From a virus: DNA of 23,564 bases. The notes under the pieces are model-generated. The model was not told the DNA's origin, made no database searches, and saw only the letters and a program-made list of their open reading frames with translations. Positions 2,000-23,498 of the stretch are shown here, piece after piece. Each line of letters begins with the position of its first letter. The stretch's first letter is position 1. The position numbers and the translations under genes were made by a program. The stretch covers positions 1 through 23,564 of IMG/VR virus record IMGVR_UViG_3300012936_000173. One strand, given 5' to 3'.

Positions 2000-2029
2000 A
2001 CCCTCTCTAAATAGTAGAGAGGGTTTTTT
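2000..2029 (+). terminator. Intrinsic terminator with late-promoter-like loop
   Basis: A 9-bp perfect stem (ACCCTCTCT at 2000-2008 with AGAGAGGGT at 2016-2024) encloses a 7-nt loop, AAATAGT. A run of six T follows at 2024-2029. It begins 7 nt after the stop codon of the small coiled-coil gene. Confidence 0.85.
2006..2013 (+). promoter_or_regulatory. Possible late promoter (TCTAAATA) inside the terminator hairpin
   Basis: The octamer differs from TATAAATA at one base and covers the inner left arm and loop of the hairpin at 2000-2024. The next ATG is at 2039, a plausible leader length for initiation near 2019. It is weaker than the other boundary elements because of the mismatch. Confidence 0.4.
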
Positions 2030-8698: not shown

Positions 8699-8737
8699 TA
8701 CTATATACTTCAGACCCAATCTTTATTCTTTTTTCTG

Positions 8738-8766
8738 TGGGGGTTGCGTTGCAATCCCCATTTTTT
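8738..8766 (+). terminator. Strong intrinsic terminator
   Basis: TGGGGGTTGC (8738-8747) pairs with GCAATCCCCA (8751-8760) over 10 bp with one G-T wobble and a 3-nt loop. TTTTTT (8761-8766) follows. It ends only 15 nt before the ATG of the 1684-residue gene. Confidence 0.9.
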
Positions 8767-8781: not shown

Positions 8782-11700
8782 ATGGCGATCTATACCTTTA
8801 CATCAGGAATAGAATCAGAGTCAGTTGGACAGTATTCCAACTTCATTTTAAGCAGCCTTGCAACCAGAACCATTGGTTCGTTCACTTTACGAACTGCGAG
8901 AGGATTATTTGGATTTATTAGCAGCGATGAAAAAAGAACATATGCATATCATCCTGCTATCATTGACCTCTATACAGAGGTTGATTATGGATTAATTACA
9001 TCAATTAATACACAAACAATAAATCAAGGAACATTATCTGATAACAACACGACTCAGGTAGATTACGGTCGCATCATTTACGTAACTAATGTAGAGTCGT
9101 TTGGATTTGTCAAACTTGTAAGTGAAGCTTCTTGGATAGCAACACAAGCATATCAAGGATCTGGAAATCTTGGATTGTTTGGTAAGGAGAAATCTCCTGC
9201 CTTCTACAACTGGATTACTGATGGTAAGGTCCGAATATCTGGAACGTCGGATCCTGCATTCTCTCCCGTCACATTTGGCGGGGGAGGATCCTCCTTACTT
9301 GGAGAAGGTTCTATTGGTATTACTGCTATCACAAGTGGCAGTGGAAATCTATTTACATTATCATCTCTCACCGAGAAAAAATCTTACGACTATCCCGCTA
9401 CGGAAGGAAGTCTGGATATTTTTGGTGCAGCAGTTCTGCAGCGTCAACGCGCATACGAAACAGAAGGAAATCTATTCGCATTTGCTGGAGGAGACGAGAG
9501 AAGACTCTTCCAATATTATGGTTCTGGAACTATCAATATTCTGGCAAGAAAACCAGAAGAATACAGACTATCAGAACTCGCAAATTATACTCTCGGAATT
9601 CATCCTGGTCTGGATGCGAATCTACCGCTTGGTCAGATTGAATTCTATACAGGACATACCAATATTGGTAATGTCCAACTAAGACATCTATCAAAAGAAT
9701 TCTCTCACGAGAAACATACAGAGGTATACACCGAAGAATCAATCAACTATTTTGAAAAAGTTGATCACGGTGTACTTGATGTTTGTACTACCACACAAAC
9801 AATTACTGGTGCTGTATCAGGAAATGCAACAGGATGTATTGTTTCTGTTAATGGCACCGCAAGTATTGCTCCTAGTCAGTCATTTAGAACTGCTCGTGGA
9901 ATTAATGCAGCGACCAGCTTCATTGATTATGGATTAGTATCCGAAGCAGCTGCACCAAGACTTGACTTCGGTCATATCTTGACCACAAGCAATATTATGC
10001 CAAATGGTCTGTTCAAGTTTAGAACAGACGTTGGATCTGATGATAAGTTTACACCTAACTGGAATGGTAGTGGTGTTATCAAGATTGCAAACATTGAGAC
10101 TATTCCTCCTCTTGATGTTAGCGTTGTATCAGAAGGTGGATTTAAAACACTTGGTGGTGCTGCAGAAACGACTCTGGTTTCGGAAGAATCTACAGGTCTA
10201 TTCACATTTACTGGCACTCCAGTTATTGTTATTACTGCTGGAGTATTTGGTGGAGGATCTCTATTTGGTATTTCTGGTGCTGCAGAATCTTTCTCTGCAA
10301 ATACACCAGAAGAGACACCAATATTCAAAATTGGTGGAACAGCAGAACCACCAGTCCTTTCACGTACAGAAGTTGCTTCTGGAACTTTATTCTCATTCTC
10401 TGGTGGAGACGAGAGAAATTCCTTTGTTCATTATGGTTCGGGTATTATTACCCTACTACCAAGAAAACCAGAGACATACGAACTTTCAGAACTATCTACA
10501 TTCACTCTGGAAGAGTATCAACTCTGTTCTCCTTATATCAATCTTGGAGACACGAGTTTCTACTCAAGCAATACAGAACTCGGTTGTGCTCAACTCAAGT
10601 GGCTCAATGCAGAAGAGTCTCACGAGAAACATACAGAAGTATACGATCTCGGACTCTGTAATGATAACCCAGAGATTGATTATGGTCTTATTGCAGATTC
10701 AAATGCAATTGCATGTGTCACAGTCAATGGCGGTACAGTAACTACAAATACTACCGCAACAACTGGATGCACTAAAGTTGCGGTTGGAACTGTTCTAACA
10801 ATTGCACCAGGAGTTACGTACAAAGTACCTCCTCAACTTACTACCCCAACAGCATTTGAAGATTACGGTCTTGTTACCGAAATTTATAATCCAAGAAGAG
10901 ATTATGGTCACATCCTTGAGACCATTGGAATTATCTGTCCATTTGGAGAGATTGGAATATTCCATGGCAGTGCAGATGTTGCTTTCTCTCGTCCAACTGT
11001 CGGAACTGCAGAGATTGGTGGATTTATCAAATTGCGTGGAGAAGCAGAAGTCTTCTACACTCCACCATATATTACCGAAGGATTTATTGGCAGAATTTCT
11101 GGAGAAGCAACAACTCTCTTCAGTCTACTTCATCCTTCTGAAGGTGGAATCTTCAAGGCATTCAGTGGATCTGCAGAGACTGTTCTGTGGGATCCAGATC
11201 TTGAACAACTTGGTTGGGAATTTAGTGGTGCTGCAGTTCCTGTCTTCAGTCTTGCTCATTATGGTTCTGGAACGATCAGAATCACTCCAGGTGTTGATCA
11301 GGCAAGGTCACTACGTCCACCTGCAGGTGGTGTTATCAATATTGATGGCACGGCAATTGAATCCTTCATTGCTAATCCACCAGAAGAAGCACCACTATTC
11401 AGATTTACTGGCACTCTAGACGAGTCATTTGCAACAGAGTATTTTGGAGAAGGTACTCTATTCTCCTTCAGTGGATCTTCGGAACTTCTTACATTTGTAG
11501 AGAAACCAGAAGTCAACATCAAGATTTCTGGTGTTGTAGATGCAAGATTCTCTCCTGTATACATTGGTTCTGGAACATTCAAGAAATTCTCTGGTCTTGC
11601 AGAATCGTTTACTGCAAATCCACAAGAGAGACAATTACTATTCTCCTTCACTGGCGCAACAGAAGAAGTCTTCTCTGCAAATCCACCAGAAGAGGGAGCA

Positions 11701-21965: not shown

Positions 21966-22658
21966 ATGAGTGATAATTTTTTAACAGAGCATAACCCTGC
22001 TCTAGTATTTCCTACTGTCATAAAGAAATATACATTTCCAAAACCAGAAGAGTTGAAGGAATGTTTGTTTGAAATTATAAACAAAATGCATGAGAATGGT
22101 GATTACAACAGTCACCATTCTAAAACTTTATCGTTTTTTAATAATAAATCGGGATGTAGTTTATTCAAGAAAGAATCTGAAAACTACGAAATTGTAAAAG
22201 AGTTCCACGATTTTGCTGAGACCTGTGCCAAACACTATTGTACAGAAGTGTTGAACCATATTATTGATGGTAAAATGATTTGCACAAATTCTTGGGTAAA
22301 TTATTACAGTGAGTCTGATTCATATCAGCAAGAACACATTCACGTAAATTCTTTAGTAAGTTCTAATTATTTTGCAAATTTTGATAAAGAAGTTCATTCT
22401 CCACTATTCTTTAAACACGTAGAAGACTATGGAGTTTCAACTTTCTTACATCAAGAATGGAAAAAAGAATTAGGAGACCATTCTATTTGGGATACAACCA
22501 CTGTGGATTGTAATGAAGGTGATATTTTATTCTGGAGATCTCACAAATTTCATTTTGTTCCAGTAAGTAAGAAACCAGGAAGATTAAGTTTGTCATGCAA
22601 CTATGTTCCTGAACTTGTAGAACTTGGTGGATACGGTTTTAGGGTATCACCAGCATGA
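21966..22658 (+). CDS. 2-oxoglutarate/Fe(II)-dependent oxygenase
   Basis: A 230-residue protein. SWVNYYSESDSYQQEHIHVN (residues 109-128) supplies an H-x-H iron-ligand motif (His124, His126). GDILFWRSHKFHFVPV (185-200) gives the distal His196. Arg206 in GRLSLSCNYV is in the place of the 2-oxoglutarate-binding arginine. The order and spacing fit the phage 2OG-FeII_Oxy_5 type of small oxygenase. Such enzymes couple 2-oxoglutarate decarboxylation to hydroxylation of a substrate, here unknown. They are common in T4-like cyanophages and often lie among structural genes, so hydroxylation of a virion protein or of a host protein late in infection are both possible. It may be transcribed with the fibre-assembly-like gene 20 nt upstream, and is followed by a terminator/promoter composite. 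Confidence 0.8.
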   Translation: MSDNFLTEHNPALVFPTVIKKYTFPKPEELKECLFEIINKMHENGDYNSHHSKTLSFFNNKSGCSLFKKESENYEIVKEFHDFAETCAKHYCTEVLNHIIDGKMICTNSWVNYYSESDSYQQEHIHVNSLVSSNYFANFDKEVHSPLFFKHVEDYGVSTFLHQEWKKELGDHSIWDTTTVDCNEGDILFWRSHKFHFVPVSKKPGRLSLSCNYVPELVELGGYGFRVSPA

Positions 22659-22660
22659 TT

Positions 22661-22668
22661 TATAAATA
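22661..22668 (+). promoter_or_regulatory. Late promoter element TATAAATA overlapping a terminator stem
   Basis: A perfect consensus octamer 2 nt after the oxygenase stop codon and 26 nt before the gp13 ATG. Its last four or five bases form the base of the terminator's left arm. Initiation about 6 nt downstream would fall at or near the hairpin loop. Confidence 0.75.
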
Positions 22669-22694
22669 CCCGTAGGAAACTATGGGTATTTTTT
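22664..22694 (+). terminator. Intrinsic terminator between oxygenase and gp13
   Basis: AATACCCGTAG (22665-22675) pairs with CTATGGGTATT (22680-22690) over 11 bp with one G-T wobble, extendable by A22664-T22691. It encloses a GAAA tetraloop. T22689-22694 form the T-run. The gp13 ATG follows directly at 22695. Confidence 0.85.
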
Positions 22695-23498
22695 ATGGCT
22701 CAGCCTGCAAGTAGGACCGAGCTAAGGGACTATTGTCTTAGACAGTTAGGGTTCCCAGTTCTGGAAATCAACGTAGATGATGATCAGATAGAAGACGCTA
22801 TTGATGATGCTTTGCAGTATTACAGAGAGCGTCATTATGATGGTGTTGAGCGCATGTATCTCAAGCATGAGTTTACTGCTGCTGACGAAACTAAGTTTGA
22901 AACTTCAGATACTACTACAACAATTAATGGCGATGCATGGGAAGAGAGAAACAGATATATCTCTATCCCACCTCACGTCATGGGAATTTCTAAAGTTTTT
23001 GGACTTGCTAGTAATGCAATTAGAAATAACCTATTTGGCATTGAGTATCAGATCTTTCTGAATGATCTCTATGCTGTTGGTTCCCTTGACATGCTTAACT
23101 ATTACATGGTTAAGCAGTGGATGGAAACCATTGATATGGTTTTAAATAATGGATCATTTGTAGAGTTTAGATTTAACCAACGTCAAGACAGACTTTATCT
23201 AGATGTTGGTAAAAACATGCTTGACGAAGATGTATATGTAATTATTGATTGTTATAGAGCATTAGATCCAGAAACATTTACTCAAGTATATAATGACACT
23301 TTTGTTAAAAAATACACTACCGCATTAATCAAAAGGCAGTGGGGACAGAACCTAATTAAGTTCAATGGCATCCAACTTCCTGGTGGTGTTAGTATGAATG
23401 GTAGAGAGTTATATACAGATGCAGTAAATGAGATTGCGTTAATGATGGAGAACTCATCTAGAACGTATGAATTGCCCCCAATGGACATGATCGGATGA
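22695..23498 (+). CDS. 13: T4-family neck protein gp13
   Basis: A 267-residue protein recognised as the cyanophage version of the T4 head-completion/neck protein gp13. Its start (RTELRDYCLRQLGFPVLEIN, VDDDQIEDAIDDALQYYRE) is highly characteristic. It also has ISIPPHVMGISKVFGL and ALIKRQWGQNLIKFNGIQLPGGVSMNGRE. T4 gp13 is 309 residues, so this is somewhat shorter, as is usual in cyanophages. With gp14 it forms the neck that seals the DNA-filled head and joins it to the contractile tail. It is expressed from the late promoter at 22661-22668, with a very short leader lacking a clear Shine-Dalgarno. It overlaps the next gene by ATGA, matching the gp13-gp14 order in T4. Confidence 0.88.
   Translation: MAQPASRTELRDYCLRQLGFPVLEINVDDDQIEDAIDDALQYYRERHYDGVERMYLKHEFTAADETKFETSDTTTTINGDAWEERNRYISIPPHVMGISKVFGLASNAIRNNLFGIEYQIFLNDLYAVGSLDMLNYYMVKQWMETIDMVLNNGSFVEFRFNQRQDRLYLDVGKNMLDEDVYVIIDCYRALDPETFTQVYNDTFVKKYTTALIKRQWGQNLIKFNGIQLPGGVSMNGRELYTDAVNEIALMMENSSRTYELPPMDMIG

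Follow-up and report, generated by a model that had tools for sequence, protein, structure and literature searches.

Promoter-early stem-loops (PeSLs) of T4-type phages, said to have been reported by Arbiol in 2010 and by Comeau in 2014, are reportedly cassettes with early sigma-70-type promoters that occur in several dispersed copies. PMC4503421 cites PeSLs as early promoter–terminator cassettes. In phage T4 itself, the late promoters of genes e, soc, 49 and I-TevI lie within the DNA encoding the 5′ strand of a hairpin (PMC3014915). Late promoters of the form NATAAATA are given for the cyanomyoviruses S-PM2 and Syn9 (PMC2984593), and CTAAATA was proposed as the late box of phage Aeh1 (PMC1524935). 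Cyanophage NATAAATA late promoters, T4 late promoters in hairpins and PeSLs are known already. In the literature searched, the coverage of which was partial, no account was found of a late promoter that is part of a terminator.

The window (the whole stretch of marine phage DNA analysed, 23,564 nt) contains a perfect T4-type late promoter box, TATAAATA, which ends 26 nt before the gp13 ATG (Table 1). As an earlier note on this DNA had claimed, the box shares bases with the left arm of a terminator hairpin, the overlap being AAATA, and the element lies between an oxygenase gene and gp13, in agreement with the matches to PHROG 81, PF13759 and PHROG 211. The same note had described an 11-bp hairpin; the hairpin was found, but its stem has 12 bp, one of the pairs being G–U. 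As in the T4 gene e type, the DNA for the hairpin's 5′ strand contains the late promoter, and the late RNA would lack the left arm. Unlike that type, in which the hairpin hides the ribosome-binding site, a U-tract is added here and the hairpin is terminator-like; furthermore, loop-type relatives are predicted to hide the start region little or not at all. The locus resembles PeSLs in combining a promoter and a terminator within a short stretch at a gene-exchange boundary, where the exchange carries the caveat of metagenome assembly, but its box is a late one, placed within the hairpin, and no early sigma-70-type promoter is listed there. Compared with S-PM2, Syn9 and Aeh1, the same box and the same gene class are present, with a gp55 homologue in the relatives searched, whereas a promoter–terminator fusion is not mentioned in the available parts of those accounts (PMC2984593, PMC1524935).

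Table 1. Coordinates of the gp13 element, the second composite and the adjoining genes in the window
Feature	Position	Strand	Basis or remark
Second composite ACCCTCTCTAAATAGTAGAGAGGGTTTTTT	2000–2029	+	CTAAATA at 2007–2013, from stem into loop; T's at 2024–2029
ORF behind second composite, 187 aa	2039–2602	+	No PHROG match
Upstream gene, 2OG-Fe(II) oxygenase	21966–22658	+	PHROG 81 and PF13759
Late promoter box TATAAATA	22661–22668	+	Sequence; conserved as NATAAATA ahead of gp13 of relatives
Hairpin left arm AAATACCCGTAG	22664–22675	+	AAATA common to arm and box; weak covariation of the pairs across 20 distinct relatives
Predicted late RNA +1, A22674	22674	+	Inferred from T4 box spacing; 21-nt leader
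GAAA loop	22676–22679	+	Fold; of 20 distinct elements of type A, 10 have GAAA
Hairpin right arm CTATGGGTATTT	22680–22691	+	Sequence and fold
U-tract of terminator, six T's	22689–22694	+	Abuts gp13 ATG at 22695
gp13 neck protein/head–tail adaptor Ad2, 267 aa	22695–23498	+	PHROG 211, E 9e-48

The features of an intrinsic terminator are present ahead of gp13, namely a stable stem-loop and a U-tract directly 3′ of the stem. The 71 nt around the hairpin folded at −21.2 kcal/mol (z = −3.0), and none of 200 shuffled sequences was as stable; with four G–C pairs, the strength of the terminator is moderate. The hairpin was absent from the list of a stock terminator scan, probably because the A–T extension of the stem consumes the first T's of the tract, and was detected by a custom scan at −14.7 to −15.6 kcal/mol. 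When the leader was shuffled 20,000 times, eight of the shuffled sequences had a T-tailed hairpin that contained a late box. Over the whole window, two box-in-terminator composites were present (shuffle mean 0.055, maximum 1), and TATAAATA occurred five times against 0.97 expected. The right arm includes GGG at 22684–22686, 8 nt 5′ of the ATG, which is a possible weak ribosome-binding site, and this arm may double as the ribosome-binding region of gp13. No Rfam family reached its gathering score, and sub-threshold matches to mir-10 and NsiR1 were taken as chance hairpin matches. A sigma-70 promoter driving gp13 was also rejected, no such site being listed on the + strand between 22640 and 22700.

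The T4 late octamer sits at −13 to −6 (PMC1524935), and this spacing, applied to TATAAATA, places the predicted RNA start at A22674. RNA from this position would retain only AG, two of the 12 left-arm bases, so that the hairpin could not form. We infer that polymerase arriving from the upstream fibre and oxygenase genes would transcribe the full hairpin and the U-tract and halt just before the gp13 ATG, and that late RNA polymerase bearing gp55 would bind TATAAATA and initiate at about A22674. The resulting late RNA, with a leader of about 21 nt and without ten of the 12 left-arm bases, would form no terminator and would read into gp13 and the neck genes. The terminator thus probably stops upstream RNA and exempts the RNA that it starts, which would insulate the neck genes from the exchangeable genes upstream. 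If this is true, a 34-bp part ends one transcript and starts the next, and the immunity of the new transcript comes from geometry alone. A gp55 homologue was detected in all nine complete or large relatives searched (E ≤ 6e-18), the window itself being a 23.6-kb fragment.

The element, in the form ATAAATACC(T/C)NTAG-GAAA-CTANGGGTATTTTT, recurs 5′ of gp13 in IMG/VR relatives, and the DNA farther upstream differs. A pattern scan of IMG/VR returned at least 119 stretches, and the next gene was gp13 in nearly all of those listed; of the two exceptions, one was a truncated end and the other had no ORF called. The cultured phage S-SCSM2R has the window-type element, and many relatives of phage T4 from the ocean share the arrangement. 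Among 178 distinct gp13 leaders, 85 had a terminator hairpin, and a late box was near the hairpin in all 85. The left arm contained it in approximately 30 and the loop in 47; in seven it followed the T-run directly (S-BM3 and a few others have this arrangement), and in one it stood just before the stem. The box was in the left arm or loop in 77 of the 85; in a further 26 leaders a box was present but no terminator was called, and 67 had neither. In the loop geometry, a longer terminator occupies the corresponding position, and its loop holds the late box, which is GATAAATA in S-PM2 and Syn1 and CTAAATA in S-RSM4, S-WAM2 and Sf-CH1b; CTAAATA probably serves as a late box in cyanophages too. Tandem late boxes, one 5′ of the stem and CTAAATA in the loop, were seen in three gp13 leaders (L021, L029 and L350). 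With the box in the loop, the late RNA would again lack the left arm, and termination of upstream RNA with escape of late RNA is the sole reading compatible with both main geometries. The comparative evidence, with the overlap of box and terminator conserved ahead of gp13 in many relatives, favours the escape that had been proposed from the window sequence.

In the gp13 tree (FastTree, 166 rows, deep placements unsure), the types were interspersed, with at least ten changes of type A and at least eight of type B on well-supported branches, and 66 of the 166 rows had neither box nor terminator. In T4 (L449), a GGGGCCGCAAGGCCCC hairpin lies between wac and gene 13, and the 110 nt that precede this gene contain neither a late box nor a T-run, suggesting that the composite is not ancestral in a simple sense. 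The predicted leader was 21–24 nt in 20 of 24 type-A cases, 22–24 nt in A0 and 20–24 nt in B (medians 22, 22 and 23), irrespective of the position of the hairpin. This near-constant length suggests that the distance to the start codon fixes the box and that the hairpin is fitted around the box. The consensus comparison used geometry as the sole criterion for type A, and this set was relied on instead of the conservation profile, which was built on element-matched rows and is biased for that reason. Twenty of 23 ATAAATA-type leaders fit the 32-nt consensus at 28 or more positions without gaps, and the remaining three have longer loops.

The anatomy of the element and its conservation are established, as is covariation of its arms. 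Two pairs vary among the 20 distinct elements of type A (C–G/T–G/A–T/G–T at one and T–G/C–G/T–A at the other), with pairing kept except in one element at each of two positions; based on these two pairs, the type-A sequences covary weakly. The 17 type-B elements that are in register show two-sided changes at three inner pairs (G–C/C–G; A–T/C–G/T–A; A–T/G–T/T–A) around a constant TAAATA loop, and the arms covary strongly in the loop type.

The hairpin might instead act mainly on translation, with read-through RNA burying the ribosome-binding region of gp13 in the right arm, late RNA exposing it and the T-run being incidental. The T4 genes e, soc, 49 and I-TevI offer a precedent (PMC3014915), and the start region of the window was predicted to be 0.18 unpaired in read-through RNA and 0.49 in late RNA, with similar shifts in two relatives (L004, 0.11 vs 0.47; L037, 0.12 vs 0.37). 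Five relatives (L001, L002, L003, L005 and L007) have a late box and a similar hairpin, ATACCTCTAGGAAAACTATAGGTAT, upstream of gp13 without a T-run, and gp13 of L001 is 97% identical to that of the window. Such hairpins suggest that termination is dispensable in some genomes, and these relatives may, by analogy with T4 gene e, rely on hiding alone (PMC3014915). In the loop type, however, the hairpin is clear of the start codon, the predicted change is small or absent (S-PM2, 0.47 to 0.59; L333, 0.39 to 0.38) and the T-runs are retained, and even in S-SCSM2R little effect was predicted (0.28 to 0.32). A mainly translational role is therefore unlikely. Hiding of the ribosome site is predicted to be an added effect in the window type and to be inconsistent in the loop type, and in the window type hiding and termination could act together.

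Stable hairpins are common at gene ends of T4-type phages, which lends some weight to the idea that the hairpin marks or protects a processed 3′ end of the upstream mRNA without terminating transcription; the observations made here would suit termination and processing alike. Protection would not need a T-run, yet one directly follows the stem in both main geometries, a T-rich tail being part of the definition used, and we regard this explanation as improbable.

The homology around the element bears on a further possibility, that it is conserved chiefly as a DNA joint for swapping upstream cassettes, with promoter and hairpin as bystanders. Among element-bearing pairs with downstream DNA at least 85% identical, the 60 nt upstream were unrelated in 401 of 788, and exact matching stopped 0–6 nt left of the box in the pairs listed. 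For example, one pair (L048 and L186) was identical across 300 nt downstream and unrelated upstream. These pairs are metagenome contigs, in which assembly could wrongly fuse unrelated DNA across a sequence of 32 bp that they share. Moreover, exchange at an essential promoter is expected anyway, because only such exchanges survive, and a function in RNA is favoured by the compensatory changes in the stem and by a predicted leader of constant length. Conservation chiefly as a joint in DNA is thus very improbable.

Composites of late box and terminator were also found elsewhere in the genomes. In eight phage records and the window, 202 terminators were called, of which 195 remained after the seven gp13 sites were left out. 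In these 195, late boxes lay in the arm or loop 11 times, compared with approximately 0.5 for anagram controls (ATAAATA, five, anagram mean 0.40; CTAAATA, six, mean 0.07), and a box directly after the T-run was found in 24 cases outside gp13 (anagram means 2.25 and 0.29); all of these counts are partly non-independent, since some sites are homologous across related genomes. In the 24 cases, the T-run merges into TATAAATA. An A-rich box pairs naturally with a T-run, so that a late promoter would coincide by chance with an A–T-rich terminator more easily than other motifs would; such an accident is nevertheless hardly credible in view of the shuffles, the anagram controls and the recurrence in two geometries. 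The exact gp13 element was present in at most one copy per record, at gp13 (14 records), unlike the dispersed copies of PeSLs, and a multi-copy mobile cassette was rejected on this basis. The suggestion in the earlier note that the element could be common in late regions holds for other composites elsewhere, but not for the exact sequence, which is confined to gp13 at no more than one copy per genome.

There is perhaps an even chance that, in marine T4-like phages, the composite is a general self-exempting terminator of the late phase, which lets through no RNA except that started from the box in its left arm or loop. Both geometries would then have arisen repeatedly at a fixed spacing from the start codon, and the element would be a joint at which cassettes of host-contact genes are swapped without disturbing the neck genes. 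If true, this would explain how fibre and adhesin cassettes are swapped upstream while the expression of the neck genes stays steady in T4-like marine phages.

For the second composite of the window, the leader that precedes the ATG at 2039 is predicted to be 20 nt long. In three phage records (G003, 105860; G005, 20556; G006, 55734), a like composite lies ahead of a conserved gene of approximately 110–117 aa containing SAKAKGRRLQQWVRDKLIE. Within the window, a strong terminator, GTGGGGGTTGCGTTGCAATCCCCAT followed by TTTTT (8737–8761), precedes a 1684-aa ORF at 8782 and has no late box inside.
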